From: a virus
Length of the DNA: 29,713 bases
Virus record (IMG/VR): IMGVR_UViG_3300009079_000081
Location: 1 to 29,713 of that record
Direction: 5' to 3' (one strand)
In this document: positions 966-24,400 of the stretch, in pieces
How positions within the stretch are numbered: the first letter of the stretch is position 1
Layout of the letters: each line of letters starts with the position of its first letter
Position numbers and translations under genes: made by a program
The notes under the pieces: generated by a model
What the model saw: the letters and a program-made list of their open reading frames with translations, nothing else
The model's database searches: none
Told to the model about the DNA's origin: nothing

Positions 966-1649
966 ATGTTAACACCTAGATTAACTAACTGTCCTGAATG
1001 TGCGGACATTCCTAATTTATTAAAAAAGATAGATTGTAAGTTAGCAGAATATGCTAATGGTCTATATAACAATGTTGTATTTATGTTGAATCAAGTTGTT
1101 CCTGCTGGAGCAATGATTCAACTTTTGGCGTATAAAAGGATTCTTACATACAAACAATGTAACCCAGATTACCTAAGTGATTTCTGTATGGATAAGATTG
1201 TAAGTAAGGTGATAAGATTAACATTAGGCTGTGACATCAGACCCATCTTTACACCAATCCCTACAACATCTACAACATCAACATCAACCACTTGTCCCCC
1301 ACTAACCACTACAACAACATCAAGTAGTACATCAACAAGTACAAGTACAAGTACAAGCACTAGTACATCCACTACTACTAGCACTACCACTGTAAATTGC
1401 ATTAGTTGGGCATATAGTATATCTTTATACAATTGTAATGATTGTATTCAAACAGGAGGAGGATCAGTGGTTAATTCAGAACCTCTTACTGTAGGTAAAT
1501 GGTATGTTTATGGAAATTTTAAAATGTACATTGAGTCATATATTGAATGTTCAGCTGGAGATCCTGTAGAAAATATATTAGATTCAAGTCAAGAAGATAC
1601 ATGTGAGGCAGTAACTTGTCCTACAACAACAACAACAACAACACTATAA
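966..1649 (+). CDS. crAss-like tail hub protein with Thr/Ser linker and C-terminal adhesin module
   Basis: The protein is about 227 residues. Residues 1-89 form the recognisable part (LTNCPECADIPNLLKKIDCK, then NPDYLSDFCMDKIVSKV). I recall this pattern as a widespread small tail-hub or fibre-anchor protein of crAss-like phages, normally ending soon after. Here it continues. A Thr/Ser linker (about 97-142, interrupted by CPP) leads to a Cys-rich domain of about 75 residues containing SSQEDTCEA, and the protein ends in CP followed by seven Thr and a Leu. A near-identical GSQEDACNA motif occurs in the muzzle C-terminal extension around 17160. The linker is encoded partly by an in-frame hexanucleotide microsatellite, so its length can change without a frameshift. 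A hub protein carrying its own adhesin domain is the best reading. Confidence 0.62.
   Translation: MLTPRLTNCPECADIPNLLKKIDCKLAEYANGLYNNVVFMLNQVVPAGAMIQLLAYKRILTYKQCNPDYLSDFCMDKIVSKVIRLTLGCDIRPIFTPIPTTSTTSTSTTCPPLTTTTTSSSTSTSTSTSTSTSTSTTTSTTTVNCISWAYSISLYNCNDCIQTGGGSVVNSEPLTVGKWYVYGNFKMYIESYIECSAGDPVENILDSSQEDTCEAVTCPTTTTTTTL
1337..1360 (+). repeat. Hexanucleotide microsatellite (AAGTAC)n in a Ser/Thr linker
   Basis: Three perfect AAGTAC units (1337-1354) are followed by one AAGCAC unit (1355-1360), inside a longer ACA/ACT/AGT-rich stretch (about 1260-1395). It encodes alternating Ser and Thr. Slippage would change linker length two residues at a time while keeping frame. Confidence 0.75.
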
Positions 1650-2792: not shown

Positions 2793-4631
2793 ATGTCTTA
2801 CCCACCTATTCCACAAAGAAAAGCTTGCGACTGTAGTGATCCTTGTATCTCTACAGATGATGTTTACTATGCTGGTCCCAATCTTCCAAACTCAGGAATT
2901 AATACTTACAATGTATTAACATCAGTTATAGAAAAGCTAGATGCTATCTATGCTGTTCCTACATTACAGAGAGTAACAGAGATGGGTAATTATACCACTC
3001 TACCAATTATTGCAGATTCATTTGTAAAGATTGGTGGAGATGGTACTAATTTATTATTGGATGACGGTACAGTGTTACCTATAGGTGATTTACCAACAGG
3101 AGTTACAGAAACATCTCAGTTGATTAATGATGGTGAAGATGGAATAAATCCATTCATTACAGCATTAGATATTCCAGCATTTAATCCATCTGATTATGAT
3201 CTAGATGAATTTACAAATTTAAACGTAGATCCATTTGCTCATGTGTCAGATATACCTGCACCTTTAGGATATGTCCCAGTTAATAAAGCTGGTGACACAA
3301 TGCTTGGAGATTTAATATTAAACCAAGATCCATCAACTGCTTTACAAGCAGCAACAAAACAGTATGTAGATAACATAGTTTCTGGAATTAATTTTCACCC
3401 ACCTGTAGTAGTAGCAACAGATGTGTCATTAGTAGCTACATATGATAATGGAATTGCTGGTGTAGGAGCTACACTAACAGGACCATCAGTTGGAGTATTA
3501 TCAATAGATGGAGAGACACCTACATATTTACAGAGAATATTAGTATGGCAACAAGCAGATCCTATTCAAAATGGTGTATATGATCTAACTACAGTAGGTG
3601 ACAGTGTAACTGTGTATCAGTTAACAAGATCATCAGATGCTGACAACAGTCCTCCAGGAGAGATACACTATGGAGACTACACGCTTGTGTTGTCTGGAGA
3701 CACAAATGGCGGGTTTGGATTTATATGTAACACACAAGGCACAATAGACATTGGGATAACACCAATCAATTATATTCAGTTCAATGCTGCACAAGCAGTA
3801 ACAGCTGGTTATGGATTACAAGAGGCTGTTTCAAATGTAATATCAATTGATCCACTAGTAACACAGGAAAAGATAACCCTTACAACAACAGGTTCTGGTG
3901 CAGCTACATTGATTAGCAACACACTTAATATACCACAGGCTGATAACTATTGGACTAAGACAGGGAACGATATTGTAAATAATAATATAGGAAAAGTAGA
4001 GATTTCTGCAGGAGGAAATTCAACTTGGGAGTTTGCAGAGGGTGTTTATATGTATTCTGGAAACGCTTCTGTTTATTTAGAAGAAAACAGAAATGTACTA
4101 GAGTTCTCAGGTAGTTTTTCTCGTCAATATTTTGATGTAAATGGAATTAGTTTATATGCTCCTACTAATGCAATAGTATCACTTAATAGTGGTAGCCAAA
4201 GTAGTAATAAAGTTTCTATAAATATTAGTCAGCAAGCAGGAGGTTTTAAAATAGATGATAGTAGAGCGACACCAAGAACAGGAATTGAGTATGCAGCTGA
4301 TTATTCAGCAAACTATACTAACAGAAGTTTAGTAGATAAAGGATATGTAAACAACAGACTAGTAGTTGAAACAGCATCACCATACACACTAACAAATGCA
4401 GATAGTGGAGGAATAGTTATATTCACAGCATCTACAACACTAACCATACCAACAGGACTTGCTGATGGGTTCGAGTGTACGTTTGTGACACTATCTGGTG
4501 TGACGCTAACAGTTGTATCAACTGGTAACACACTGAACAACGCAACAAGCACAACTATGCTTCCACAACTAAGTTTCACACTTAAGAGGATGCTAGCAGC
4601 AGACACCTATATAGCAACAGGAAACCTATGA
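2793..4631 (+). CDS. Long tail fibre protein
   Basis: This 612-residue protein opens with a Cys-containing anchor (ACDCSDPC) and a segment about picking an entity index (NVLTSVIEKLDAIYAVP). At residues about 168-194 it has the tail-fibre shaft motif NKAGDTMLGDL...LQAATKQYVD, widely seen in phage fibres. A receptor-binding-like domain follows, with HPPVVVATDVSL, YDNGIAGVGATL and NGVYDLTTVGD. The second half is beta-rich and repeat-like, ending in a TLTIPTGL / TLTVVSTGNTL tip of the kind found in trimeric fibres. The stop overlaps the next start (ATGA, 4628-4631), so this and the next gene are translationally coupled. That coupling suggests fibre shaft and tip in two chains, although the next protein could also be a chaperone. 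Confidence 0.8.
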   Translation: MSYPPIPQRKACDCSDPCISTDDVYYAGPNLPNSGINTYNVLTSVIEKLDAIYAVPTLQRVTEMGNYTTLPIIADSFVKIGGDGTNLLLDDGTVLPIGDLPTGVTETSQLINDGEDGINPFITALDIPAFNPSDYDLDEFTNLNVDPFAHVSDIPAPLGYVPVNKAGDTMLGDLILNQDPSTALQAATKQYVDNIVSGINFHPPVVVATDVSLVATYDNGIAGVGATLTGPSVGVLSIDGETPTYLQRILVWQQADPIQNGVYDLTTVGDSVTVYQLTRSSDADNSPPGEIHYGDYTLVLSGDTNGGFGFICNTQGTIDIGITPINYIQFNAAQAVTAGYGLQEAVSNVISIDPLVTQEKITLTTTGSGAATLISNTLNIPQADNYWTKTGNDIVNNNIGKVEISAGGNSTWEFAEGVYMYSGNASVYLEENRNVLEFSGSFSRQYFDVNGISLYAPTNAIVSLNSGSQSSNKVSINISQQAGGFKIDDSRATPRTGIEYAADYSANYTNRSLVDKGYVNNRLVVETASPYTLTNADSGGIVIFTASTTLTIPTGLADGFECTFVTLSGVTLTVVSTGNTLNNATSTTMLPQLSFTLKRMLAADTYIATGNL

Positions 4632-5473: not shown

Positions 5474-5506
5474 TAAAAATAAAAAAATACCAGATTGAGG
5501 ACTAAC

Positions 5507-5518
5507 AATAAAACCAAA
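5507..5518 (+). repeat. Intercistronic 12-mer AATAAAACCAAA, copy 1
   Basis: The exact 12-mer lies four bases before the ATG of the first array adhesin (5523). The same word precedes the adhesins at 7555 and 8193, and a shortened form (TTAAACCAA, 5972-5980) precedes the one at 5980. I did not notice it before other genes of the window. Confidence 0.75.
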
Positions 5519-5522
5519 TAAC

Positions 5523-5966
5523 ATGACAGTACTAATAACATTAACAGAAATAGGGCTAGATGATGGACCATTTGATTTATATTCAAATGTCGATAATTAC
5601 ACAGATCCTTTTGCAGAATCAATTGATGCAATTGTTTTAGGTGGGGGGTATATATCTGATGTAGTTCCTGATCTAACTACTAATATAAAAGTGACATCTA
5701 CTAGTGCATGTACTAACTCAATTAATATTCCAGTGGTGCCAGCATTTCAAACTACAACCACCACTACAACTTTACCACCACCATGTTATACATTTGTAAG
5801 TGCTCCATACAATAATAGAATTGTAATAACATATATTAATTGTTCAGGAAATTTACAAACACTAGAACATTTTTGTACAACAGGAACTTGTACCAAAGAA
5901 ATATGTGCAAGGCTTATAATAGGAGCTTCAGAAATAATGACAAATACAGGACCTTGTATCCTTTAA
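5523..5966 (+). CDS. Array adhesin 1: GPFNLYS domain, Thr linker, NCSG module
   Basis: This 147-residue protein is the first of four tandem paralogues. Residues 1-72 are the shared N-terminal domain: short strands (VLITLTEIG), DGPFDLYSN, a GGYISD turn, VPD, then STSACTNSINI. A run of seven Thr (77-83) and three Pro lead to a compact Cys-rich domain (88-147) with CYTF, ITYINCSG, EICAR and NTGPC. The C-terminal domain matches, motif for motif, the last domain of the 1754-residue muzzle protein (CFSF, VTYTNCSG, FCAR, NNGSC). I infer a receptor-binding or decoration protein, docked by the shared N-terminal domain with the variable end outward. No enzyme motif is seen. Confidence 0.7.
   Translation: MTVLITLTEIGLDDGPFDLYSNVDNYTDPFAESIDAIVLGGGYISDVVPDLTTNIKVTSTSACTNSINIPVVPAFQTTTTTTTLPPPCYTFVSAPYNNRIVITYINCSGNLQTLEHFCTTGTCTKEICARLIIGASEIMTNTGPCIL
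5751..5770 (+). repeat. Thr-linker direct repeat, copy 1
   Basis: The 20-mer ACTACAACCACCACTACAAC is identical to 7777-7796 in the third array adhesin. It encodes the poly-Thr linker in both places and is a possible template for homologous exchange of C-terminal domains. Confidence 0.8.
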
Positions 5967-5979
5967 TACCCTTAAACCA

Positions 5980-7539
5980 ATGACAGGAATAATATTATTA
6001 ACAACAGTGGGAGATGATGCTGGACCATTTAATCTATATTCAAATGCATCTATCCCAGAATTTAGTGTACCGTTTGGTGATTTATATATAACTGCAGAAC
6101 AATTACTAGCAGGTTATGTAACAGATCAAATTCCAGATGGTACAACAACAATTAGAGTTAAGTCTATCAATGCCAATTGTACAAATTATATTGATATAAA
6201 CATTCCCGCATGTTTGTTTAATGGAAATGCACAAGAATTATTCACACCAACATCTTGTTATAAATTTGAACCTTCTGGAATTTATCTAACTTCAAATATA
6301 ATCAAATCTGATAAAATATATTCTTATGGAGCTTTTACAGGATATAGTGAAGAAGGAGTTATAACTAATTCACCATATTTAATTAAATTAAATGATGATT
6401 TAACAATAGATACATCATTTGATGCTGGTACTAGTTTTAATGAAGTATTATATGCTGGGTCTTCAATTATTGAACAATCTGATGATAAAATAATTGTAAC
6501 AGGTTCATTTACAACATACCAAGGGGTGGGAGCTAATCGTATTATTAGATTAAATACTGATGGAACTAGAGATAATACATTTGTGATCGGTAGTGGATTT
6601 AATGACTATACACAAGTTCCTGCAATAGATTCTTTAAATAGAATAATAGTTCCAGGAGCTTTTGACTATTATAATGGTAACTATGCTCCTCTATTAGCTA
6701 GATTATTAAGTGATGGAACATTTGATCCTACATTAGTTATTAGTGGATTTAATAATGTTACAACATCTGTATTAACCAATACAGATAATTCTTTAATTGT
6801 TGGAGGATATTTTACAACGTATGCTAGTGTAGGTGCAGAAGGTATTGTTAAATTAAATGAAAACGGAACAATAGATCCCTCATTTAATTCTGGTACAGGT
6901 TTTAGTCCAGGATGGGAATATCATGGAATTTATACTTGTAGAATTCCAGGAGAAGATTCTTTTTATGTAGGTGGAAGATTCACTTCTTACAATGGAATAT
7001 CAGCTAATCGTATTATTAAGTTAAACCAGAATGGAACAAGAGATACTTCATTTGACTATGGTACAGGTTTTGATACTGATAGTGTATATTTCATGAGTGT
7101 GATATGGGGTGATAAATTATTTATAGATGGTGGTTTTACAAGTTACAATGGAGTTGATTCTTTTTATTATATAATATTAAATTCAGATGGTAGTGTATTA
7201 GCTTCTTTTGATCTTACCCCATCTGATTCAGAATTATCAATTTCTGGAACATCAGATAATGGAGGATTGATTAGAGTGACAACAGCCACCCCTCATGGAT
7301 TTTTAACAGATGATTATATTTATATTTATGGAGTGGAGGGTACAATGAATGCAAATGGATTCTGGTATGTAACTGTGATAAGTCCAAATATAATAGAACT
7401 TCAAGGAAGTATATATGATGCAGCATACACAAGTGGTGGTAGTATAGTATCAGATGTAATTGTAATTCCTATAGGAAATAATGTATTTAGATCAATAAAT
7501 AATGGTTGCTTTGAAAGAGTTTACACATATGTCCCTTAA
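5980..7539 (+). CDS. Array adhesin 2: GPFNLYS domain, delta-60-repeat propeller, E1_FCCH-like domain
   Basis: This is the 519-residue member of the array. Residues 1-77 are the shared domain (AGPFNLYSN, PDGTTTIRV, NCTNYIDINIP). Residues about 100-410 are a series of delta-60 repeats, recognisable by recurring IIVTGSFTTYQG, GANRIIRLNTDGTRD and FNSGTGF units (also GGYFTTYAS, GGRFTSYNG, GGFTSYNGV). From the family, these should fold as a beta-propeller. Residues about 418-492 (ISGTSDNGGLIRVTTATPHG, GVEGTMNANGFW, AYTSGGSI) resemble the small FCCH-type beta domain seen in phage tail proteins. Unlike its neighbours it has no Thr linker. Its leader carries only a shortened form of the array's intercistronic word (TTAAACCAA). 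It probably binds a glycan or surface protein. Confidence 0.8.
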   Translation: MTGIILLTTVGDDAGPFNLYSNASIPEFSVPFGDLYITAEQLLAGYVTDQIPDGTTTIRVKSINANCTNYIDINIPACLFNGNAQELFTPTSCYKFEPSGIYLTSNIIKSDKIYSYGAFTGYSEEGVITNSPYLIKLNDDLTIDTSFDAGTSFNEVLYAGSSIIEQSDDKIIVTGSFTTYQGVGANRIIRLNTDGTRDNTFVIGSGFNDYTQVPAIDSLNRIIVPGAFDYYNGNYAPLLARLLSDGTFDPTLVISGFNNVTTSVLTNTDNSLIVGGYFTTYASVGAEGIVKLNENGTIDPSFNSGTGFSPGWEYHGIYTCRIPGEDSFYVGGRFTSYNGISANRIIKLNQNGTRDTSFDYGTGFDTDSVYFMSVIWGDKLFIDGGFTSYNGVDSFYYIILNSDGSVLASFDLTPSDSELSISGTSDNGGLIRVTTATPHGFLTDDYIYIYGVEGTMNANGFWYVTVISPNIIELQGSIYDAAYTSGGSIVSDVIVIPIGNNVFRSINNGCFERVYTYVP

Positions 7540-7549
7540 TAAAACCAAA
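7538..7549 (+). repeat. Intercistronic 12-mer AATAAAACCAAA, copy 2
   Basis: Exact copy of the word at 5507-5518. It begins inside the TAA of the previous gene (7537-7539) and ends five bases before the ATG at 7555. Confidence 0.75.
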
Positions 7550-7554
7550 AACAA

Positions 7555-8181
7555 ATGAATTTACTTATAACATTAACAAGCGCAGGCCTCAACTCAGGAC
7601 CATTTAATCTGTATTCAAATGTAGATGGTTACCAAGCAGCATTTGAATCTGATGTACCTAAACAAGATTTATTAGATGGATATGTGTCCATTCTAGTTCC
7701 TGATGGTACTACATTGGTTAGAGTTCAATCTGATAATAATTTATGTACTAACTACATAGATTTATCTACAGCTGGAACTACAACCACCACTACAACAATA
7801 GGAGCTACTTATTGTGTAAACTGGACAGCAGCAAATCTAGATAATATAAAAATGTCTACTCAAGGTTATATTGATTTCTCAGCAATACTAGCTGGAAGAA
7901 CTATATTGCCTACAAGTTGTGAAGGAAACATAATTGGATATACAGTTTCTGGTGTTGGGACATTTATTTGTTCTATCCCTATGGATTTTAGTGTATCACC
8001 TCTTGCAACATGGGATACAGATTTACTTCCTGCAGTTACAGACACAGTATTAAATTCTTTAATATACACTGTTTATGTAGAATTTACTGATTCAAGTTAT
8101 TATGAAATAATTAATGGTCAAACAAATGCTGTTGTAATTCCAGGACAACTGACTTCAGAATATAATGATTGTCCAATTTAA
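7555..8181 (+). CDS. Array adhesin 3: GPFNLYS domain, Thr linker, unique beta domain
   Basis: This 208-residue protein has the shared N-terminal domain at residues 1-72 (NLLITLTSAGLNSGPFNLYS, GYVSILVPDGTTLVRV, LCTNYIDL). A six-Thr linker (75-80) follows, then a C-terminal domain of about 125 residues, starting YCVNWTAANLDN and ending EYNDCPI, unlike those of its neighbours. The GPFNLYS coding DNA (7597-7621) differs by one base in 25 from that of the adhesin at 5980, and the Thr-linker DNA shares an exact 20-mer with the adhesin at 5523. Anchor and linker are thus conserved at DNA level while the outer domain differs. I do not recognise the outer domain; a receptor-binding role is inferred from the array. 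Confidence 0.7.
   Translation: MNLLITLTSAGLNSGPFNLYSNVDGYQAAFESDVPKQDLLDGYVSILVPDGTTLVRVQSDNNLCTNYIDLSTAGTTTTTTTIGATYCVNWTAANLDNIKMSTQGYIDFSAILAGRTILPTSCEGNIIGYTVSGVGTFICSIPMDFSVSPLATWDTDLLPAVTDTVLNSLIYTVYVEFTDSSYYEIINGQTNAVVIPGQLTSEYNDCPI
7777..7796 (+). repeat. Thr-linker direct repeat, copy 2
   Basis: The exact 20-mer also present at 5751-5770, about 2 kb upstream, in the same place relative to the anchor domain of its gene. Confidence 0.8.
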
Positions 8182-8193
8182 AATAAAACCAAA
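8182..8193 (+). repeat. Intercistronic 12-mer AATAAAACCAAA, copy 3
   Basis: Exact copy. Its last A is the A of the ATG at 8193, so distance to the start codon varies between copies (0 to 5 bases). That argues against a fixed ribosome-binding role. Confidence 0.75.
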
Positions 8194-8753
8194 TGACAAT
8201 ATTCTTACAATTAACAACCGCTGGATCTGATTCAGGTCCATTCAATCTTTATTCTGATTTAGATGGATATACAATTCCATTTGAAACAGATGTGTTTAAA
8301 TCTTCATTAGAAGTAGGTTATACAACAGATGCACCAGATGGTACACAAACTGTAAAAGTTGTATCTACAGGAGCGTGTATAAATTCTACATATATAACAC
8401 TAGCAATACCAGATTGTACATTAGCTGGATATGTAGAAGAGATAACTACAACCACTACCACTACTATAGCTTGTGAATGTTTTCAAATACAAGCAAATAT
8501 TAGTCAATTAGATTTAGATGATGCTACTGGAAATACTAATCCTGTAAACAATAATGTAATTAGTTTGATATATTTAGATTGTAATGGTATATTTTCAGTT
8601 CAGAATTACACAGTAGCTGGTACAAATATTATTTATCCATCTGGATGTACAAATGATTCATTGAACATATTAAACTTTAGATATTTCAAAAATGATGTAG
8701 AAATAACATCTGTTGTTTCAACAGCATCTTTGTCTAGTTTTTGTTGTATATAA
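8193..8753 (+). CDS. Array adhesin 4: GPFNLYS domain, Thr linker, Cys-rich C-terminal domain
   Basis: This 186-residue protein is the last of the array. Residues 1-73 are the shared anchor (SGPFNLYSDLDGY, APDGTQTVKV, TGACINSTYI). The linker at 85-91 is seven Thr, followed by a Cys-rich domain beginning CECFQIQANI, with LIYLDCNG in the middle and SSFCCI at the end. The YLDCNG element resembles the YINCSG and YTNCSG elements of the array protein at 5523 and the muzzle tail, so this may be a diverged member of the same outer-domain type. A terminator region follows, so it is the last gene of the fibre transcript. A receptor-binding role is inferred from context. Confidence 0.7.
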   Translation: MTIFLQLTTAGSDSGPFNLYSDLDGYTIPFETDVFKSSLEVGYTTDAPDGTQTVKVVSTGACINSTYITLAIPDCTLAGYVEEITTTTTTTIACECFQIQANISQLDLDDATGNTNPVNNNVISLIYLDCNGIFSVQNYTVAGTNIIYPSGCTNDSLNILNFRYFKNDVEITSVVSTASLSSFCCI

Positions 8754-12371: not shown

Positions 12372-15300
12372 ATGGCTGAAGAACAATCACAAGGAAATAT
12401 AAAACAAGAACTTAATAGTGCTAACATAGGGCTAAACCTTGATAACACATTAAATCAAATTAAACAGGGCACGCTAACGTATGCTCTGAATGCTGCTGTT
12501 GAAAACTTTGATTCTTCTTCTGTTAACTATCAGAATGAACAAGGTAATGAACTGTGTGTTACATTTCCTAAAGAATATGTATTGATAGGAACGCATTTTA
12601 TTAATGAACAAAGTAAACATATATTCTTCATCACCAATCCTAATACAGGAGATAGTGAGATAGGATATATGGATAACAATGATTGTATCTATCGTCCATT
12701 AGTTAATGCAATATGTCTTAACTTCAATGTTGATCATCCTATTCATAAAGCTGTACATAAAATTACAAATTGTACAACAGAGATATATTGGACAGATGGA
12801 TTCAATCCTAGAAGATATTTAGATATAAATGATATACCATATATATTAAGAAGTGGATCTGCACTTTGTGATCCTCTTTTTTCAGATCAATTAGATTGTA
12901 ACCAATTAAAGCTACAACCTAATTTTAATATTCCAAACCTTGCTATTGCAGATGTTACTACAGGAGGATCTCTTCTTGCTGGTACATATCAATTTGCAGT
13001 GCAGTATTCTGATGCTGTAGGTAATCCTTTCACTTCTTATTATTCTATTACCAATCCTACACCAATTGCTGATCCACAAATTGCAACAGTTAACTTTAAC
13101 TATGTTGTAGGAAAGTCTGTAGTTGTTGCTGTAGATAACTTAGATTCATCTGGACAGTTTCAATATTTCAACCTAGCTGTTATCAAAACAGTTAATGCAA
13201 TTACATCTGTAGAATTGATTGGAACATATTTTATAGATAACACATCTTTAAATATAACTTACACAGGACAGATAGTTGATGACATTCGTTTATCAATGAA
13301 TGATATATTTGAGAAGTTTCCATATTATGATGTAGCAGAAGATTTAACAGCTGTGCAGGATGTTCTTGTATGGGATGGACTTGCGTCTATAGATAGAATT
13401 AATTATCAATCTATAGCTTCACAAATAAATTTGTTATGGGAAACATATGCAATTCCTCCAAATGAAAACTACGCAAATGAATTAAATGCTACAAACCTTA
13501 GAGGATATTTACGTGATGAGGTGTATGCATTTGAAATTGTATTCTTATTAAAGAATGGAAAACAAACAGATGGCTTCCATATTCCTGGTAGAATATTAAC
13601 TACACAAGAACAGTTTCTTCCAGAAATCCCTGATACAAATAATGATTTTATAGGAACACCTGCAAGAATAGATGATGAAACAGGAATTGGATATAGTCCT
13701 TATTGGAAGATATATAATACAGCTTCTGTCATTGATGTTGCTCAAGGAGATTCTATTGGAAATGCAACTCCTTATGAATATGGAAACTTTGCATATTGGG
13801 AGTCAACAGAAGAGTATCCATGTAATAAAGATCTTTGGGGAGACTTAGCTGGTCAAAATATAAGACATCACAAGTTTCCTGATGTATTAGTATCTCCTAT
13901 TACAAAACCAGTTATAGAGTATGATTCTTCAAAAGGTTTAGCTGGTCTAGCTGTACAAAATGATTATGTATATCCAATAGGAGTTAGATTAGATACTGCG
14001 CAAGTTAGTAATTTAATACAGACATCATCATTAACAGATGATCAGAAAGCTGATATAGTAGGATACAAAATAGTAAGAGGAGATAGAGGAACAAATAAAT
14101 CTATTGTAGCAAAAGGTATATTACGTAACGTAGGAGAATATAAAAGAGAAGAACAATCTTTTTACTTTCCTAACTATCCATATAACGATCTTAATGAAGA
14201 TGTATTTCTTAATGCAACTAATAATGCTTGGTCTAATGAAACAACTCCTTGGTTAGTTACTTGTAATAGTATAGATCCTACATTAGGATATGCAAAAGTT
14301 TCCTATACAGATCCAAATACAAATAGAGAGAATACATGGAATGTAAAATTAAATGAAACTGTAGAGTTTTGTTCAGCAACTAGGCCAATTACTGTTTTAG
14401 GAGTTTGTAACATTGGTCCAGGAAATTATGATGTTTGGTACGCAACAGGTTGTTTAGGATGTAGAGGATATAACATATTCTGGGATGATCCCTTCACTAT
14501 AGATAATTCAACAGTTAATCATAGACAAGATTATTTAGATGGAACTGGAGTACTTGATCTTAATAGTGGAGGTTGTGATACTACATATGCAACTGTTGAA
14601 CAAGGATTTGGAATTGACAGTGATTGTTCAAATGGCTTTTGGGATGGATTGTGTAAATGTAATTCTTGGGGTTCATTTGGTCTTGAAGCTATTTATTTAA
14701 CTACTGCAGTTGATCAAGATGAAGCTCAAATTCTTCCTAATGTAGGAAGAAGATCTAAATTAAATTGTAAGGTGCCAACACCTTTAAGTCCTATTAGCAG
14801 TAATACAGAACTTAGCAAAAGACAAATATTTAATTCTCCAGAAACTTCTTTTGGTCAACCGTTCTTAGGAGACATTCTTAAACTAGAGAATGTAATGTAT
14901 GGTAAAGGATACGCACATTTTGTACAGGTAAAGAGTAATGCTAAGTATAGACTACTTACAAAAGAAGCGCAAGAAGATGCTTTAGAAAGCTCTAATAAAT
15001 TAGGAAGTATTACAGATCCATTTAATGCTACTGCTATGTTTACAGCATACCAAGCATATTTACAAATATATATAAATGGTATAACTAGAAGGAACTATGC
15101 ATATTCATTTAACTCTACAGCTAGTTATGATTACAATGCAGATATTACTAATAGTGGAAACAAACAAAGAACATTAGATATTAAAAGATATTTAATTCCA
15201 GGAGTACAAAATGTAGGAGATGATTTTAATATTAATAACTATCAACGAGAATCTTCTGTTTATTTAAGAACAGATGAAAATAAAACTGGATTACCATTTC

Positions 15301-17636
15301 CTAGTGTTAGTGGAGTTACAGATAAATCTAGATTAACAATAGGAGGTAGCGGTGCTTGTGCTACTCCTGCAAGAGAACAAGATATAAGTGTTGTTTCTTA
15401 TTATGCATCATTAAAGAATACATTTGTAAATCAATATGGACAAATATATTCTTATGATACAATTGATACAGGATTTCAAACAAGTGTAACATCTAATACT
15501 ACTGCTGTAGTATTTGGAGGAGATACATTCATATCTAGGTTTGCATTTAAAACTAAACTTCCTTTCTTTATAGATAATAGAGTTAATGCTCCTGATGATA
15601 GTGATATATTCTATGATGAGATAGGTAATGTAGCTTATCCAAAATACTGGCACTCGGCTAGATCTATATTAAGTAATTTTGATCTTACTAATACTCATGG
15701 TGGTACACCTACATTAACAAATATTATTTCATATAAAGCACATAACTTTGATTGTCCTAATGATCCATTACCTGCTGAGGGAACTGGTAGAACATTCTAT
15801 GATGGATATTTCTATTTGTTTGCTTATGGTATTCCTAATTTCTATTGTGAGAGTTCTTATAACACAGATCTAAGACAAGCATTTAATAATAAAGAAGGAG
15901 ACTTCTGGCCACATGTATCTACAGGTATTCCCGATGATTGGGTACAAGAAGATTTTGTATCAATAGCAAATGATAATACATATACATATAATGTAACATT
16001 CTCTAAACAGAATAAAGAAAATACATTTACACATTTACCAGCAGATTATGATGGAAATCCATGTTATACATACTATCCATTTAGAGCTGTATATTCAGAT
16101 GCACAGAACACTGATGCTGATAACAGAGTAAATAGTTGGTTAACTTATAGAGCTATTTCTTATTTTGATTTTCCTCAGAACTATGGGGCACTTATATCAT
16201 TAGATGGTATTCAAAACAAAGCTGTATTAGCTAGGTTTGAGAATAAAACATTAATGTATAACAACCTCCTTACAATTGACACGAGTAATCCACAAGCTGC
16301 ATATGTAGGTAATCCTAATATGTTTAAAGGAGCACCTCCTATTGACTTTGCAGAAACAGATCTTGGATATGTAGGTAGCCAAAATAAAATGTTATTGAAG
16401 ATTCCTCAAGGACAGATAACAGTTGATGCTAAAAGAGGACAAGTTTTTCTTATTCAAGGAACACAAGTAGAAGACTTATCTGCATTTGGTTCTGGAATGA
16501 ATAGATTCTTCACAGACCATTTAGCTTTTGAAATCTTGAGATACTTTCCAAAGGTAGATACAGATAACAATTTTAATGGTGTAGGATTGCATGGTGTGTA
16601 TGATAGTAAGTTTGATAGAGTGATACTTACTAAGTTAGATTACATTCCATTGAGTAATGATATTAAGTATGATACTACAACAAGAGATTTTTATATAGAA
16701 GAACCATTAGGTAATAATGTTTTTAATAAATTAGTTGTAAGTTTAAAAGACTCAGATTACTTTTGTAATAAGTCTTGGACACTTTCATTTAATGTAAATA
16801 CTAAAAGCTGGATATCTTTTCATAGTTATATTCCTAACTGGTATATAGCAGAAAACAATTTCTTTTATTCTGGTATTAATGGATGTTGTGATGAGTTTGA
16901 TTTTATTGCAGGATCTATTGTACCTACACCAAGTACAACAACAACTACTTCTTCTTCCACTTCAACATCAACTACTACTTCTACTACTACAATAAAAGAT
17001 TGTACAATAGAAGGACAATTAATATTAACTAATTGTGATATAGAAGGAGAAGGTTACATAATTCCACAACCATGTCAAAGACCTATGCACTTACTAACAT
17101 TTGCACTTATACCAGGATATGTAATAATATCTCCTCCTTCAACAGTAGTTTCTACAGGAAGTCAAGAAGATGCATGTAATGCCATCTCTTATTTAAAGTC
17201 ACTTACTAATGATACTACTGCAAGTGTTACTAATCTTTTAGCTAGTGCTGTAAGTTTAACAGTTGGACAGACTTTATACAACACTTCAACAGGAACAGAT
17301 TGTACATTGATACCTGATGGTTGGTATTTTACAGCAAGTACTATAGAGAGTGAAATAGTATACAATGTAGTAAATGGTGTAATAACTGAAATAGTTAATT
17401 GTAATCCAGTTACTACAACAAGTACTACTACAGCATCAAATTGTTTCTCATTCACAATACGTAAATCATCAATTGGTGTTGTAGCAGTAACTTATACTAA
17501 TTGTTCAGGAGTAGCATCAAGTATAAATATTGGTAACCCAACACCAGGTGGACCTTCTGAAGCAACGTTCTGTGCACGTAATGGTAGCATAACTGTACCT
17601 CCTGATGTATCGTTAATTAATAATGGATCTTGTTAA
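12372..17636 (+). CDS. crAss-like muzzle / tail-stabilisation protein, main part, with adhesin-like C-terminal extension
   Basis: This 1754-residue protein has a core (residues 1 to about 1515) whose start (GLNLDNTLNQIKQGTLTYAL) and recurrent propeller-like beta blocks match, from memory, the muzzle protein that closes the crAss-like tail and relates to P22-type tail-stabilisation proteins. Conserved blocks include IYWTDGFNPRRYLDIND, FNSPETSFGQPFLG and SWISFHSYIPNWYIAENNFF. Between about 600 and 815 there is a Cys-rich stretch (ten Cys) that looks inserted. After FYSGINGCCDEFDF the core stops and two Thr-linker modules follow: a Ser/Thr linker (about 1518-1540), a domain with GSQEDACNA, a second Thr linker (about 1680), and a last domain with VTYTNCSG, FCAR and NNGSC, the same type as the adhesin at 5523. 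The expected muzzle C-terminus is missing here and appears in the next gene. Confidence 0.72.
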   Translation: MAEEQSQGNIKQELNSANIGLNLDNTLNQIKQGTLTYALNAAVENFDSSSVNYQNEQGNELCVTFPKEYVLIGTHFINEQSKHIFFITNPNTGDSEIGYMDNNDCIYRPLVNAICLNFNVDHPIHKAVHKITNCTTEIYWTDGFNPRRYLDINDIPYILRSGSALCDPLFSDQLDCNQLKLQPNFNIPNLAIADVTTGGSLLAGTYQFAVQYSDAVGNPFTSYYSITNPTPIADPQIATVNFNYVVGKSVVVAVDNLDSSGQFQYFNLAVIKTVNAITSVELIGTYFIDNTSLNITYTGQIVDDIRLSMNDIFEKFPYYDVAEDLTAVQDVLVWDGLASIDRINYQSIASQINLLWETYAIPPNENYANELNATNLRGYLRDEVYAFEIVFLLKNGKQTDGFHIPGRILTTQEQFLPEIPDTNNDFIGTPARIDDETGIGYSPYWKIYNTASVIDVAQGDSIGNATPYEYGNFAYWESTEEYPCNKDLWGDLAGQNIRHHKFPDVLVSPITKPVIEYDSSKGLAGLAVQNDYVYPIGVRLDTAQVSNLIQTSSLTDDQKADIVGYKIVRGDRGTNKSIVAKGILRNVGEYKREEQSFYFPNYPYNDLNEDVFLNATNNAWSNETTPWLVTCNSIDPTLGYAKVSYTDPNTNRENTWNVKLNETVEFCSATRPITVLGVCNIGPGNYDVWYATGCLGCRGYNIFWDDPFTIDNSTVNHRQDYLDGTGVLDLNSGGCDTTYATVEQGFGIDSDCSNGFWDGLCKCNSWGSFGLEAIYLTTAVDQDEAQILPNVGRRSKLNCKVPTPLSPISSNTELSKRQIFNSPETSFGQPFLGDILKLENVMYGKGYAHFVQVKSNAKYRLLTKEAQEDALESSNKLGSITDPFNATAMFTAYQAYLQIYINGITRRNYAYSFNSTASYDYNADITNSGNKQRTLDIKRYLIPGVQNVGDDFNINNYQRESSVYLRTDENKTGLPFPSVSGVTDKSRLTIGGSGACATPAREQDISVVSYYASLKNTFVNQYGQIYSYDTIDTGFQTSVTSNTTAVVFGGDTFISRFAFKTKLPFFIDNRVNAPDDSDIFYDEIGNVAYPKYWHSARSILSNFDLTNTHGGTPTLTNIISYKAHNFDCPNDPLPAEGTGRTFYDGYFYLFAYGIPNFYCESSYNTDLRQAFNNKEGDFWPHVSTGIPDDWVQEDFVSIANDNTYTYNVTFSKQNKENTFTHLPADYDGNPCYTYYPFRAVYSDAQNTDADNRVNSWLTYRAISYFDFPQNYGALISLDGIQNKAVLARFENKTLMYNNLLTIDTSNPQAAYVGNPNMFKGAPPIDFAETDLGYVGSQNKMLLKIPQGQITVDAKRGQVFLIQGTQVEDLSAFGSGMNRFFTDHLAFEILRYFPKVDTDNNFNGVGLHGVYDSKFDRVILTKLDYIPLSNDIKYDTTTRDFYIEEPLGNNVFNKLVVSLKDSDYFCNKSWTLSFNVNTKSWISFHSYIPNWYIAENNFFYSGINGCCDEFDFIAGSIVPTPSTTTTTSSSTSTSTTTSTTTIKDCTIEGQLILTNCDIEGEGYIIPQPCQRPMHLLTFALIPGYVIISPPSTVVSTGSQEDACNAISYLKSLTNDTTASVTNLLASAVSLTVGQTLYNTSTGTDCTLIPDGWYFTASTIESEIVYNVVNGVITEIVNCNPVTTTSTTTASNCFSFTIRKSSIGVVAVTYTNCSGVASSINIGNPTPGGPSEATFCARNGSITVPPDVSLINNGSC

Positions 17637-17645
17637 TAAATTAAT

Positions 17646-18512
17646 ATGTCAAAAATAATAACAATAAGGTTAACTCAAGTGTCACCATCTTCTGGACCAT
17701 TTACAATCTATGATCAGTTTGGGAATGTGATAGCAGAAGGTGTGACTAAGAAAGCTCTCATTGATGGGATTAACTATTCTGTGGATGATGATGTGTTATC
17801 AATTACATTAAAATCTACAGGTAATTGTAAAATACAAAAGACAGTGTATGTAAGTGACATTACAGAAGAGGAATATATTAATATCAAATTAAAACAAATT
17901 GTAACAGGATGTATATGGAGACACTTAACTAATATACAATTATACAATTCTTACTATGGTGTTACAGAACCATACATAATTGAATATCCATTTGCTTATA
18001 GTAACCAAGATGAGATCTTACAGAACGTAAAAGATTACACTAAAGCATATGAATATATATCTATACCAGATGGTGTCTTTAATGATAACACAAGAATAGA
18101 AACAAACAACAAGTGGTTTAACAAAGCTATTTTATATAATGGACAACAGAGTTCAGGAGTGTTAACTCTTGTTGCTAAACCTCTTAATGATATGCGTGCA
18201 TACATGCAATATCCAATATTCAATACAGATAGTAAAACAATCACGTACACTAAGAGTGATAACTTCTATCAGTATAATACATTCTGGGCTCTACAGAAAA
18301 GTTCTCAAGTTCCATTGTTTAATACAGGATGTGAAAGTCTTTCTATTGATAAGGTGATTAACCAAAGCAATATGGATTATGGATCCAGAAGTTTCAAGAA
18401 AGCTACACTAAGAGCTAAAGAACTCAAGATACGTCATATATTAGATGACAATTGTACAACTCATCTTGTCTCACAATTTATCCTAAGCCCTAGTCAAATC
18501 AGTTACAAGTAA
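17646..18512 (+). CDS. GPF-anchor domain fused to the C-terminal domain of a muzzle protein
   Basis: This 288-residue protein begins with a diverged copy of the adhesin anchor at residues 1 to about 75: ITIRLTQVSPSSGPFTIYDQ, then STGNCKIQ. From about residue 88 (CIWRHLTNIQLYNSYYG) to the end it matches what I recall as the C-terminal domain of crAss-like muzzle proteins: PYIIEYPFAYSNQDEILQNV, a KAILYNGQQSSGVL segment, SDNFYQYNTFW, CESLSIDK, NQSNMDY, LRAKELKIRHILDD and the closing HLVSQFILSPSQISYK. The preceding ORF carries the rest of the muzzle and ends in other modules. The pair is best read as a muzzle split by insertion of adhesin modules. The next gene starts in its stop codon (TAATG, 18510-18514). 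Confidence 0.72.
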   Translation: MSKIITIRLTQVSPSSGPFTIYDQFGNVIAEGVTKKALIDGINYSVDDDVLSITLKSTGNCKIQKTVYVSDITEEEYINIKLKQIVTGCIWRHLTNIQLYNSYYGVTEPYIIEYPFAYSNQDEILQNVKDYTKAYEYISIPDGVFNDNTRIETNNKWFNKAILYNGQQSSGVLTLVAKPLNDMRAYMQYPIFNTDSKTITYTKSDNFYQYNTFWALQKSSQVPLFNTGCESLSIDKVINQSNMDYGSRSFKKATLRAKELKIRHILDDNCTTHLVSQFILSPSQISYK

Positions 18513-20827
18513 TGAAAAAGAATACACAAACATCAAACTGGTTAGAGAATTATAATGATTCTAATGTAAATTTACCTCAAGGATATGTAGGAGAAGGAAT
18601 ATTCAATGGTCCTATATTTGAAAACCCTGCTGTTAAAGGACAATTTCAAATGGGTGGTAATATACCAGGAGCTGTAGGACATATGTATGCTAGAACAGGA
18701 GCTCCTAGTAAAGGACCACGTAGAAACCAAACTGATGTTACAGATGCTTCTGCACAGAATGGCAAAGAGATGCAATACTACCAACAAGGATTAGATTGGA
18801 AACCTAAATCTATTAGTCAAAATGGAAGTTATAATACTGGGGATAAAGTAACTTATGGAACTCCTGAATATAGAGAAGCATATAATAGAGGTGAGGTGAT
18901 TACAGATGAAGGAGTTCGTTCTCCTATACAATTAGATGAAGTAGTAATAAAAGGAAAGAAGAAAGATAAGAATTGGTTAGAACAATATGCAAGTAAGATT
19001 GCAGAAGAGAATAGAGATGCTGGGCTATTAGGTGCAATCATTGGTACACCTATTTCTGCTATTACAAGTCTTCCTCAACTTATGGGAATGAAAGCTTTAA
19101 CAGGAGAAATGCAAAGACCATCAGAAGGATTAGATATTAAAAATCCTTATGGAGCTATGGCAGTTGATGCTATAGCAGATCCTTCAACCTGGATAGGTGT
19201 TGGTGAGTTATCAGGATTAAGTAAACTAACTAAAGAAAAAGCTCTTGCAAAATTATCTAATCTAAAAAATATAAATGCAGAAGGTAAGATATTTAGTGGA
19301 ATGAACAATCAACTAAATAGTATTGTTAAAAATACTGCAAACACATCAAAAAATTTAGAAGACTTAACTCATGCTAAAGATTGGGCAAAACAATATGGAT
19401 ATGAATTACCAGAAAACTTAGAAAGAATTGCTCAATCTGATGAACTTACTAATAGAACTGTAAGAGGTATGATGAATAGACATAATACTTTTGTTAGAGG
19501 CGTGAGTACTAACTGGGATGAACTTGCAACAAGAAATCCTGAAATATTAAGACATCTTGAAGGAAAAGGAATTGATTGGCAAAATAACCCAAAAGCAGCT
19601 GCAGAATATATGGCAACGCATGTTCCTATACAAACAGGGTATGGTAGAGCAGACCTAAATCAGCAAGTTTTTGGACAAGGGTTAGATGCAATTTATACAT
19701 CTAATTCTATCCCTACTGCTGAAGGTTACACTTATGGACAAGGTTATATAACAAAAGTTAAAAAACCAACTGACTTTTCTTCTTTAGATAGAAAAGATTG
19801 GATTACTAAAAATAATCCAGAATATTATGAAAATTCATTACCATCATCAAGAGTATTTAGTGTTGAAAATTTAGATCAACTTAATCCTAAAATTGCAAGT
19901 GATTTTCTTGAGCAAGGAAGAATCAACAATGATGAATATAAAAAAATGTTAAAATATTTTGAAGAATCAAATAATAAACATGTAGATTTACATAAAGAAC
20001 ACAAAATAAGTGAATTACCAGAAAGCATTTGGGATCAAACTCCTGAGCATGATGAAATATTTGATAATTATTATAATGCATTAAAAAAAGAAAAAGAAGC
20101 AATTGCTAAAAATCTTTTTTTTGAAGATTATAGTGGTAAAACATTAAGAACGGAAAGAGCTCCTATTTCTAATTCAGTTTTTCATACTAATAAAATAATT
20201 GACAAATTTCTTGCAACTAAAGGTAAAAATACTTGGAGCAGTGCAAAAGGTACTTCTGAAGGAGAGAAATTATATCAAGATATAATAAATATTCAAAAAA
20301 ATAATCCAGATAATAATAAAGCAGTTTTAGATTTTATACAAAAAAATTATCCTGAGTTTGATCCTATAGATAGATATTCACATTATATACATTTAGGAAC
20401 TCCAGGTGAAAAAATATTAGAACCAATTAAAAGCTGGGAGATTACTCCTGATATATGGAAGAACAAAAGTAGAGCACATACTAATGCTTATTCTAAGAAA
20501 TTATCAGCAATGGAAGAAGGAGGAATCATTAAAGATGATAGAGGACAATGGGATCATCCAGGAGAGATAACAGAAATAGGAAGTAATGAAATAACAATGG
20601 AAGGAGTTCATTATGATGTTCTTGGTGTATCAGATACTGGTGATACTAAACTAATGAAACCAGGAAAGAATTATAAGTTCAAAGGAAAGAAGGTGACAGA
20701 ATATCCTATGGCTAAGAATGGTGTAAACCAACAAGATCAAAAAACTTTGCAACAATTAGATCAATTGACTAACTTTACAAATTATAATAAACCACAACCA
20801 GGAGGTTGGTTAGAAGCTTACAAATGA
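18512..20827 (+). CDS. crAss-like virion cargo protein with a candidate ADP-ribosyltransferase-like region
   Basis: This 771-residue protein has an N-terminus (SNWLENYNDSNVNLPQGYVG, IPGAVGHMYARTGAPS, SAQNGKEMQYYQQGLDWKPK) and C-terminus (WDHPGEITEIGSNEITMEGV, KFKGKKVTEYPMAKNG) that I recall as framing a protein after the muzzle in crAss-like phages, where internal cargo is encoded. Residues about 172-195 form a small hydrophobic stretch. The middle (about 320-430) contains TFVRGVST (326-333), YTSNSI (395-400), TAEGYTYGQGYITKVKK and DFSS. The spaced RG and YTS resemble the R-S part of R-S-E ADP-ribosyltransferases; I could not place the catalytic Glu. Cargo is thought to be ejected into the cell, so an effector is possible. 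The stop overlaps the next ATG (ATGA). Confidence 0.65.
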   Translation: MKKNTQTSNWLENYNDSNVNLPQGYVGEGIFNGPIFENPAVKGQFQMGGNIPGAVGHMYARTGAPSKGPRRNQTDVTDASAQNGKEMQYYQQGLDWKPKSISQNGSYNTGDKVTYGTPEYREAYNRGEVITDEGVRSPIQLDEVVIKGKKKDKNWLEQYASKIAEENRDAGLLGAIIGTPISAITSLPQLMGMKALTGEMQRPSEGLDIKNPYGAMAVDAIADPSTWIGVGELSGLSKLTKEKALAKLSNLKNINAEGKIFSGMNNQLNSIVKNTANTSKNLEDLTHAKDWAKQYGYELPENLERIAQSDELTNRTVRGMMNRHNTFVRGVSTNWDELATRNPEILRHLEGKGIDWQNNPKAAAEYMATHVPIQTGYGRADLNQQVFGQGLDAIYTSNSIPTAEGYTYGQGYITKVKKPTDFSSLDRKDWITKNNPEYYENSLPSSRVFSVENLDQLNPKIASDFLEQGRINNDEYKKMLKYFEESNNKHVDLHKEHKISELPESIWDQTPEHDEIFDNYYNALKKEKEAIAKNLFFEDYSGKTLRTERAPISNSVFHTNKIIDKFLATKGKNTWSSAKGTSEGEKLYQDIINIQKNNPDNNKAVLDFIQKNYPEFDPIDRYSHYIHLGTPGEKILEPIKSWEITPDIWKNKSRAHTNAYSKKLSAMEEGGIIKDDRGQWDHPGEITEIGSNEITMEGVHYDVLGVSDTGDTKLMKPGKNYKFKGKKVTEYPMAKNGVNQQDQKTLQQLDQLTNFTNYNKPQPGGWLEAYK

Positions 20828-21447
20828 AAACAGGTATATATACAATAACTAATACTATTACAAACCATATATACGTGGGAGCTGCTTCTGACATTCTAAA
20901 AAGATTAAATCAACATTTATTAGGATTAAGAAGAAATAATCATGATAACGATTATTTACAAAATTCTTTTAATAAGTACAAGGAAGAAAGTTTTATCTTT
21001 GAAACATTGGAAGAATGTAACAAAAAATACTTGTACTCTCAAGAACATTATTGGTGTAATATGTTAAATACACATAATAAAAGTTTTGGATTTAATTTAA
21101 AACCAACACATCCAGATAACCTATCTTTGTGTAGTGAAGAAACTAGAACAAAAATTAGATTAAAGGCTACTGGTAGAAAATGGTCTGATGAATATAAACA
21201 ATTGTTTAGAGAAAAACAATTAGGAAAAAAACAATCAGAAGAACAAATTACAAAATCTAAAGAAAGCAAATACAAAAAAGTTTATCAATATTCTTTAGAA
21301 GGGAAGTTAATTAAAGAGTGGCCTTCAGCTCAACACATAAAAAAAGAATTAAACATACCAGCAAATAACATATCTAATTGCTGTAATAATAAAAAGTCTT
21401 GTAATACTGTAAAAGGTTTTAAATGGACATATATAAATCAAGGCTAA
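20824..21447 (+). CDS. Free-standing GIY-YIG homing endonuclease with NUMOD modules
   Basis: This 207-residue protein starts at the ATG overlapping the upstream stop (ATGA, 20824-20827). A longer TTG start at 20806 is possible but less likely because it would sit inside the cargo gene. The GIY-YIG nuclease signature is visible: GIY (4-6), YVG (17-19), R27 and H31, SQEHYW with E74, and GFNLKP with N91. Downstream, two GRKWS / GKKQS repeats (about 118-145) resemble NUMOD3, and YQYSLEGKLIKEWPSAQHIK...NISNCC...KGFKW is NUMOD1-like, both DNA-binding modules of homing enzymes. The gene probably moved in between two cargo genes as a selfish element without disrupting either. It should cut cognate sites in phages lacking it. 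Its coding style is Lys-rich and intron-like compared with its neighbours. Confidence 0.87.
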   Translation: MKTGIYTITNTITNHIYVGAASDILKRLNQHLLGLRRNNHDNDYLQNSFNKYKEESFIFETLEECNKKYLYSQEHYWCNMLNTHNKSFGFNLKPTHPDNLSLCSEETRTKIRLKATGRKWSDEYKQLFREKQLGKKQSEEQITKSKESKYKKVYQYSLEGKLIKEWPSAQHIKKELNIPANNISNCCNNKKSCNTVKGFKWTYINQG

Positions 21448-21460
21448 ACAAATATAAATC

Positions 21461-24400
21461 ATGAAAGCACAAATTTTAAAAATTGCAGGAGTTAAATCTG
21501 AAAAGGAGTTCTATAAAAAGTTTCCTTCAGAAGAAGCCTTTATGAAGAAACATGGTAAAGAGTTTAAGAAAGCTCAGACTGGTGCTGCAATTAATGCATC
21601 ACAAGTACGTCAACCAGCTTTCAAACCTTTAAGTTATCAAGATCAAGTTGATGATGTTGACAAAATGTTAACAGGTTCAACAGCTGCACAAAGACAAGAG
21701 CTTGCACTTAAACAACAAGCTGCTTCAAAAGATAGTGGTAGTGGTGGAGGTTTTGACATTGCTGGTCTTATGAAACTAGCTGGAGGTGCTATGCAAGGAG
21801 GAGAAGGCATGGAAGGCATAGGTGATTTGGGTGGAGCTGCAAGTGGTGCTGGAGCAGGTGTAGCAGCAGCAGCAAGATATGGAGCAGATATTCCTATGGC
21901 TCAAGATGGAGATTGGTATTCTAAGAATCCTATAGGAGGTTCAACTAGTTATGGACAAGTGCAACCTGTAAGTGGATTAAAATCTGCAGGTTCTACAAAT
22001 CCTTTAGCTACTGGTGGAACAGGAGGATTTGATGTTTCTAAATTAGGTCCTCAAGGAGTTGGTTCAAAAGCAGAAGATAATACATGGTCTAAAGTGGGAG
22101 GAGCGTTAGGTAAATATGCAGGACCAGTTGGAGATGTTATTAGTGGTATTGGAGAATTAAAGAAAGAGAAAGAAGCAAGAAAAGCTGCTGAGCAAGCAAG
22201 AGATGTAAGTAAAATATCTCTTCAAGCAGCAACAAGTGTTGATGTAGATGCAAGAAGACAACAATCTGAAAACATAGCTAAGCAAAGAGAAGCACAAATG
22301 CCAGTTAATACAGGAGAAGAATTCTTTCCTATATATGGTGTAGGTACAAATGTTCTTGCTAGAAATGGTATGATGTTACAAGGTGGCGGTGAAATACAAA
22401 ATACATATGATCCATATGATATATATGAAGATAGTGGATATGAGCCATTGAATGATAGTAACGTGAAACAATACTACCATGGTGGAAGATTACATAAAAT
22501 GCAAGATGGTGGAGGAACTCCTTGGGGAGCTATTGGACAAAAAGCTACAGGCATAGGACAATCATTAATGGGTGGTCAAAATGCTGGTGGTAAAATTGGT
22601 GGTACAATAGGTTCAAGTATTGGTAATGCTATTGTTCCAGGACTAGGTGGAGCTATTGGTGGATTTGTTGGAGGATTAGCTGGTAATGCTTTAGATACTA
22701 ATGCTAAGAGAATGAAGAAAGCACAAGATGCTACACAAAGAAATATGCAAGGAATGGCTAATGCTAATATGGCTAAAGGTATTCAAGCACAGAACCAATC
22801 ATATATGGAAGATGGTGGATGGGTATCTAACGATTGGACTCCACAAGTTATAGCTTCATTCGGTGGTCTCGATGAACAAGAAGTATATGACTATGCACAT
22901 GAAGGAATGGATACACTAAGAGCTGGTGGACATTTAAGAGATTACACACCTCCTAGTGATAGAGCTATGGAAATATATGAAGATGGTGGAGAGATTCAAT
23001 CTTATGGATTAGGTGGAGAGTTACAAACACATTGGGGTGGAGGAGCTGAAACTATTTCACGTAACCCTTACTTACCTGGTACAGGAGAAACAATTATGTT
23101 TAGAGGTAAGAGTCATGAAGAATATTCTCCAAATGGAGAAACAGGAATTGGTGTTACATATGGTGGTAACCCAGTAGAAGTAGAAAGAGGAGAACCTATG
23201 GTAGAATTAGAAGAAGGTGGAACAATAGATCCTGAAACAGGAGAAGTTCAAAAATCAGGAGTGGTGTTTGGTAATCTTCAAATACCTAATCAATATATAG
23301 ATATGTTAGGAGATAAAAATGCAAAAGGTAAAAAGTTTAAAAACTATGTAGCTGATTTATCTAAGATAGAAGAAAAACAAAATACTATCATAGATAAATC
23401 ATCTAAAGAACTTAATGCTCTTGATCCTGTAAACTCTTTTGATAAATTAAAACTTACAGCATTGCAAGCTAATATACAAGGAGCTAATATGAAACTTAAA
23501 GATCTTGCTGATAAAAAGATAAATGCAGCTTCTCTTCAGAATGCTATCAATGATACAGCAGAAGAACATGGATTAGTTGCTGATGATCTTGCTAGAGGTA
23601 AAGCAAAGGTTGATAAAAAAGCTTTACGAGACTATGCTGAATATGGTAAACAAATGTTTGCAGATGGTGGTTCTATAATTGATCCTTTAGAACAATTAAA
23701 AGAATTACTAGGAAATAAAGGATTTGATTATAAACAATCAAGTGGTATAAGAACAGGTTCAAAAACTAAACAAGGAAAAGCATCTAGACATAGTACTGGA
23801 GAAGCTATGGATTTAACATTTCCTAAATTAGGAAAAGATTCATACAACGCAATGTTACAAGATCCTGAGATAGCTCAATTCATGTTAGATAATAATCTTA
23901 CAGCTATAGATGAATATGATGATGACATAAGAAAACAAACAGGAGGATCTGGAGGACATTTGCATATTGGATTAGATAAGGGTACAGCTGTTGCAGATAG
24001 ATTTAGAAATCAAGCTCAAGCATTGTATGGTGCTAAAACACCAGCTACTACAACTGACAATACTACTAGTGCAGCAACTACTACAACTGAGATTACTAAA
24101 CCTCCAAAAATGACAACAGCAGAAGCTATTAGTAAAGGATTTAAATACAATCCAACAACTAAGCAATATGAAAAAACAGTTAAAGGAGTACAAGCAACTG
24201 ATACTGCAACAAATGAAGGGACAGCATTAGAGAAAATTCCTGCAGGACAAAAACGTGGTACATCAGGTTTGTATGGTAAAGTGACACAAGAAGCTTTTGA
24301 TACAGCTAAAAAAGAAAACCCTTGGTTTGATTGGACAGGTTTTGATCCTTCTAAGAAAGCAGATGTATTACGTTATCAAAATGCATTTAACACTAAAGCT

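Follow-up and report, generated by a model that had tools for sequence, protein, structure and literature searches.

An Ig-like anchor domain with exchangeable outer domains in the tail-gene block of a crAss-like phage, and its copy in a split muzzle

In IMG/VR virus record IMGVR_UViG_3300009079_000081, four adjacent genes encode proteins that share an N-terminal domain and differ in their outer parts; we refer to these genes as the array and to the shared domain as the anchor. A fifth, diverged anchor opens the second of two genes that together encode the muzzle. We put at about 0.6 the probability that the array proteins are display units carrying exchangeable modules on a common anchor, one copy of which was built into the split muzzle. 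The stretch analysed (positions 1 to 29,713 of the record, 29,713 nucleotides, hereafter the window) is the tail-gene block of a crAss-like phage: its open reading frame (ORF) at 12372 aligned with the Pfam family crAss_MUZ (E 1.5e-31), and neighbouring ORFs matched PHROG virion structural proteins.

The array and its anchor domain

The array ORFs are located on the plus strand at 5523–5966 (147 aa), 5980–7539 (519 aa), 7555–8181 (208 aa) and 8193–8753 (186 aa), separated by gaps of 11–15 bp. The anchor occupies the first ~72–75 residues of all four, with 45–49% identity to the first copy, and the motifs GPF, L-x-x-G-Y, PD-x-T and C-x-N are kept across the array copies. When gene 5980 was used as query within the window, the other three array genes were recovered (E 1e-12 to 2e-14), and a hidden Markov model (HMM) profile built from relatives matched all five window anchors with E values from 5e-23 to 4e-31, the diverged copy at 17646 among them. 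Chance similarity is therefore excluded, and the original prediction of four adjacent genes with a common N-terminal domain of about 72 residues was right in its coordinates. An artefact of the genetic code was also ruled out, as the 19 complete window ORFs checked all stop at TAA or TGA and recoding is not needed.

Behind the anchor, the four proteins differ. In the first (5523–5966; anchor HMM E 3e-28), residues 1–75 are followed by a poly-T linker and an NCSG module; the AlphaFold2 model has a predicted local distance difference test (pLDDT) score of 88–96 in the anchor block, 81–92 in the NCSG module and <50 in the linker. The second (5980–7539; E 5e-23) carries a beta-propeller of five DUF5122 (delta-60) repeats (PF17164, E 2e-48) and an FCCH-like stretch. 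In the third (7555–8181; E 4e-31) and fourth (8193–8753; E 5e-27), a poly-T linker leads to an outer domain which, in the latter, is Cys-rich. The NCSG module, the delta-60 propeller and the Cys-rich domain are as originally described. The FCCH-like stretch scores 19.9 bits against PF16190, under the Pfam cut-off of 29.5, and the 7555 domain, once thought unique, has a 70%-identical copy on an anchor ORF of locus L172.

AlphaFold2 predicts the anchor to be an autonomous, small immunoglobulin (Ig)-like beta-sandwich with one short helix, with pLDDT of 88–96 over most of the array anchor and 80–92 in residues 1–80 of the muzzle copy. Foldseek searches of the Protein Data Bank (PDB) with both models returned nothing at E <= 0.001. 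In a viral library of predicted structures, several Virus NIOZ-UU157 proteins had the anchor fold at about 1 Å over 75 residues, two of them being stand-alone 77-residue copies. Other structural matches were generic Ig/Fn3-like folds with Z below 8.

Environmental contigs of crAss-like phages often carry the domain. Searching IMG/VR with the four array anchors as queries, as the original prediction had proposed, retrieved 244 confirmed relatives. Records with an anchored muzzle have one to five array genes, a count per genome that had been proposed as well, and the outer domains are diverse. We studied 80 loci; the loci and records compared throughout are not phylogenetically independent. In all 80, the anchor stands at the start of its ORF, in one copy per ORF.

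The window anchors matched no Pfam family, and nothing in PHROG matched the anchor region, the genes at 5980 and 17646 matching PHROGs only via their outer or muzzle parts. Neither BACON nor PKD matched the five window genes or, with E allowed up to 1, a set of 21 diverse anchors. Sequence searches of the PDB and tblastn against INPHARED phages retrieved no anchor. Profile A3 was too divergent for scanning genome contigs; the narrower A2 used instead found no anchor in GTDB contigs, a result that a distant bacterial relative could escape. Among open-licence papers, we found no description of this anchor, the Thr-rich linkers or the split muzzle. The suggestion that the anchor has no described name thus stands against Pfam, PHROG and this literature, and no known domain with another role was encountered. 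The anchor probably represents an unnamed family without a Pfam or PHROG entry, whose members are small Ig-like carriers in crAss-like tails.

Exchange of outer domains

Exchange is recorded in L013 and L014, two loci with 97% identity across 3.6 kb. Array anchors 1 and 3 of the two match in place (97.8% and 98.7% DNA identity), and the outer domains match crosswise: that of L013 gene 1 corresponds to L014 gene 3 at 97.9%, and that of L013 gene 3 to L014 gene 1 at 92.5%. All other pairings of outer domains between these loci reach about 76–81%, in short stretches. The DNA alignments show directly a reciprocal swap of outer domains behind unchanged anchors. In L014, the swapped outer domain opens with a TAG codon (7832–7834) in place of the TAT of L013; this copy is possibly in an off state or decayed.

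The nearest relative of the window, L005, has all four anchors in common with it and is 97.7% identical downstream, and differs in two of the four genes. Its gene 3 stops after the linker, and in gene 4 the Cys-rich domain is replaced by Fib_succ_major (E 2e-32). The DNA match between the two is lost at the Thr linkers of genes 3 and 4, in the latter at 8464. Together with the swap, this bears out the claim that outer domains are exchangeable. Of the 86 array proteins that have an outer part, two whose anchors are 50–80% identical seldom share a detectable outer domain; the comparisons support a much faster turnover of outer domains than of the anchor, and fixed outer domains, the alternative to be feared, were not what the relatives displayed. 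Several outer domains belong to families known from surface proteins, namely Fib_succ_major, Lcl_C and DUF5122 propellers, along with a weak SprB-repeat match.

The modules are not confined to the array. Array outer modules recur on hub-like, muzzle and tail-fibre-like proteins, and the swappable pool therefore exceeds the array, which is one carrier among several; this suggests a single module pool serving several tail proteins. In the window, the hub-like protein encoded at 966–1649 (plus strand), taken as THB by position and appearance only, ends in a Thr-linked module from the common pool, found elsewhere on similar hub-like proteins, N-terminal muzzle proteins (MuzN, see below) and anchor ORFs. 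The tail-fibre-like gene at 2793–4631 (plus strand) has relatives with a similar N-terminus (by eye) that carry array-type outer modules, and the module of gene 8193 was detected on fibre-like ORFs of L083, L069 and L016.

Across 5503–8192 of the window, the array genes have a common A-rich leader, about AAAACCAA, ahead of the ATG, with no evident Shine-Dalgarno site. Leader and anchor could provide homology flanking each outer domain on both sides.

The split muzzle

The muzzle of this phage consists of two plus-strand ORFs. MuzN (12372–17636) comprises the N-terminal and central part (PF25731, 109.9 bits against a cut-off of 27). Its match to intact muzzles stops at residue ~1507. Thr/Ser linkers and modules make up the ~247 residues that follow, after which come a stop, a new start and the fifth anchor. 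MuzC (17646–18512; anchor HMM E 3e-23) contains this anchor in residues 1–78 and the C-terminal muzzle segment in residues 90–288, which are 27.5% and 31% identical to the C-termini of the intact muzzles of Flavobacterium phage Fpv3 and Leptolyngbya phage Lbo-JY46, respectively. Both intact muzzles are single chains, continuous through the split site, and the junction is seamless: the homology of MuzN ends at Fpv3 residue 1767 and MuzC residue 90 aligns with Fpv3 residue 1768. The muzzle of Lbo-JY46, a phage of the cyanobacterium Leptolyngbya (L085 15618–20582), is closer to that of the window (33–36% identity) than the Fpv3 muzzle is. By alignment, MuzN and MuzC are homologous to the Crassvirales muzzle, in a split form. 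The fifth anchor, originally placed at 17646 as a fusion to the muzzle, is thus real and tied to this protein; it opens the second part of a muzzle gene that is split in two and is not an added adhesin.

VIA aligned MuzC 93–281 with residues 1242–1367 of phi-crAss001 gp44 (7qok_A; Z 5.0), and a weak profile alignment (probability 74%) paired the conserved W of MuzC with gp44 ~1239. The two comparisons agree in placing the cut at about gp44 1239–1242 (~W1239). Modelled alone, the muzzle part of MuzC reached a pLDDT of only 29–62 per block, as may be expected for a fragment that completes MuzN; a narrow alignment could also be the cause.

The stop and restart are kept across 72 orthologues, and the anchor is present on 72 of the 73 distinct MuzC orthologues, the remaining one being cut by a contig end. 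Split and anchor are fixed in the whole clade, as far as these orthologues represent it. The order at the split (linker, module, stop, ATG, anchor) is that of a gene-to-gene junction in the array, and the stretch inserted in the muzzle presumably derives from array DNA. Extra anchor genes were found inside the split, between MuzN and MuzC, at L057 9985–11398 (also in L278), L221 9177–10705 and L163 6219 onward; an array can therefore also be housed in the muzzle split. A second muzzle lineage (L246, L248, L250–L254, L259, L262–L267 and L269) is split near the C-terminus as well, ~65 residues earlier, and its C-terminal piece begins with an unrelated Cys-rich domain. Judging from these alignments, muzzle splitting recurs near the same site.

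Array and muzzle anchors occur together almost without exception. Records with an anchored muzzle also encode array anchors in 39 of 40 cases, the exception being truncated upstream by the contig end. In a second set, both anchor types were present in 16 of 18 records, and the other two end short of the muzzle position. Conversely, 29 of the 31 muzzle relatives without a muzzle anchor lack any anchor, and records of 110 kb and more contain no anchors besides the array and muzzle copies. In an anchor tree, the muzzle copies form one clade separate from the array anchors (support 0.71). Four foreign tips come from locus ends, at the expected place of the muzzle copy, and resemble cut-off muzzle copies.

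Two further genes downstream in the window were recognized by eye: a GIY-YIG homing endonuclease-like ORF (20806–21447), which follows the gene next to MuzC and precedes the large gene at 21461, and this large gene itself (21461–25342), probably encoding a cargo protein, with a D,D-peptidase-like stretch (RHSTGEAMDL...GGHLHIG).

Role of the anchor and comparison with known systems

If the array proteins are display units, each would dock on the virion tail through its N-terminal anchor and hold a small binding module outward on a flexible Thr/Ser linker. Early in the lineage, one anchor joined the muzzle, a step read from the sequences, with MuzN gaining linkers and modules and MuzC the anchor. 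The two chains presumably re-associate, which would bring six anchors and six module tails to one place per muzzle hexamer. Modules are exchanged between array genes and between phages at breakpoints that the alignments place in repetitive linker DNA, probably by homologous recombination there. Glycans or proteins of the host surface are the most likely targets of the outer modules, and anchor-only genes may serve as blank units or be structural in their own right. Anchor and swapped parts together resemble a kit with which the tail could change its binding targets; a change of host range, as in the original prediction, would be one conceivable outcome.

Several observations weigh against the display reading. 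G021 and G023, two of the 31 muzzle relatives mentioned above, each have one array-type anchor and an unanchored muzzle. A partial Mantel (mirror) test, itself a weak one, detected no covariation of array and muzzle anchors beyond the genome background (-0.005, p 0.52). Considering both results, a docking partner other than the muzzle anchor is conceivable, and the idea of one common socket for all anchors gained no support from this indirect test. Because the muzzle anchors form one clade, the association of array and anchored muzzle may partly reflect common descent. The placement of array proteins on the particle is predicted from their genes; as far as the ORFs tell, the MuzC copy is the only anchor covalently tied to a tail protein. 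The fold matches, with Z below 8, are generic, and some large records, such as G011 (113 kb), contain a naked anchor as their sole anchor besides MuzC. The array anchor gene of G021 (L321 2341–3960, minus strand) carries thrombospondin type 1-like repeats recognized by eye (DWSAWSAC).

Naked anchors are frequent: 40 of 129 complete array proteins have <30 residues behind the anchor. A pure adhesin-carrier role does not cover such genes, which makes a structural role of the anchor a serious rival, and the anchor probably does more than carry adhesins. Tentatively, the findings may be combined into an undescribed tail-tip layer, in which an Ig-domain collar would be seeded by the split-muzzle anchor and filled by up to five adhesin-bearing or blank anchor proteins, with modules reshuffled among the genes for muzzle, hub, fibre and array proteins by recombination in the Thr/Ser linkers. 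Alternatively, the anchor would be chiefly structural, array proteins and the MuzC copy assembling at the muzzle into an accessory ring or collar of Ig domains, with optional outer modules. This would account for the naked anchors in 21 of the 50 loci with an interior array, some of which have no other array gene, for the almost constant company of array and anchored muzzle, and for the anchor genes between MuzN and MuzC, but the absence of a mirror-tree signal between array and muzzle anchors speaks against it, as do G021 and G023; we regard it as possible and rather doubtful.

The anchor could also be a generic Ig-like decoration comparable to Hoc or BACON proteins, a weak carbohydrate binder with no specific socket. 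The sandwich fold is indeed a common one, and adherence of gut phages is mediated by Ig-like proteins (PMC13370021). However, the anchor is strictly N-terminal and single in each gene, unlike multi-domain BACON or PKD proteins, its sequence is kept while outer parts turn over, and the muzzle fusion is fixed across the clade, which makes this reading improbable. That the array proteins are secreted or placed on the cell surface late in infection, for instance against superinfection, is most improbable of all, given genes inside the tail block, modules in common with hub-like, muzzle and fibre-like genes, and one anchor covalently within the muzzle.

These findings matter because crAss-like phages are abundant and their host recognition is poorly known. 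They introduce a domain family that has no name, a muzzle split throughout a lineage and glimpses, at sequence level, of modules changing places in nearly identical phages, and they make testable where new binding specificities plug in and which tail part bears them.

Modular receptor-binding tailspikes and fibres combine a conserved N-terminal structural part with a variable outer part, and several different ones can be present per virion. The array resembles them, by sequence comparison, in its conserved N-terminus and exchanged outer domains. It differs in that the anchor is a ~75-residue Ig-like domain, usually Thr/Ser-linked to small modules, in that one copy lies in a split muzzle and anchor-only genes are common, and in that trimeric beta-helix depolymerases were not seen here. 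Examples of such modular tailspikes or fibres are those of Klebsiella phage KP32, Ackermannviridae and Alcyoneusvirus (PMC13082707, PMC11721090, PMC10253068).

For the muzzle protein gp44 of phi-crAss001, differences in length through insertions in muzzle domains have been described, and its IG2/crass region spans 318–1021 (PMC10172136). MuzN and MuzC together correspond to this muzzle; gp44 is a single chain, whereas they are two, bearing modules and an anchor where the chain is cut. The cut is C-terminal to the crass/IG2 insertion regions. BACON, PKD and Hoc are Ig-like modular adhesins of gut phages (PMC13370021, PMC6949934) and likewise place small Ig-like domains on phage proteins in modular combinations, whereas the Ig domain described here is constant and N-terminal, is not the variable displayed part and has no Pfam match. 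The best of the generic structural matches were type IX secretion C-terminal domains (RemZ, RemA, RgpB), which have a similar beta-sandwich shape (RemZ, Z 6.2, 2.3 Å over 64 residues). In contrast to them, the anchor is N-terminal in every ORF found, at 17% identity and with no sequence-profile match; as a sign of common origin the shape match is weak, a Z under 8 being attainable by a common arrangement, and we do not assign the anchor to this family. The logic of an anchor plus exchangeable domains is therefore known from other phages, and the present system is set apart by its anchor family, its anchored and split muzzle, its blank anchors and its common module pool.

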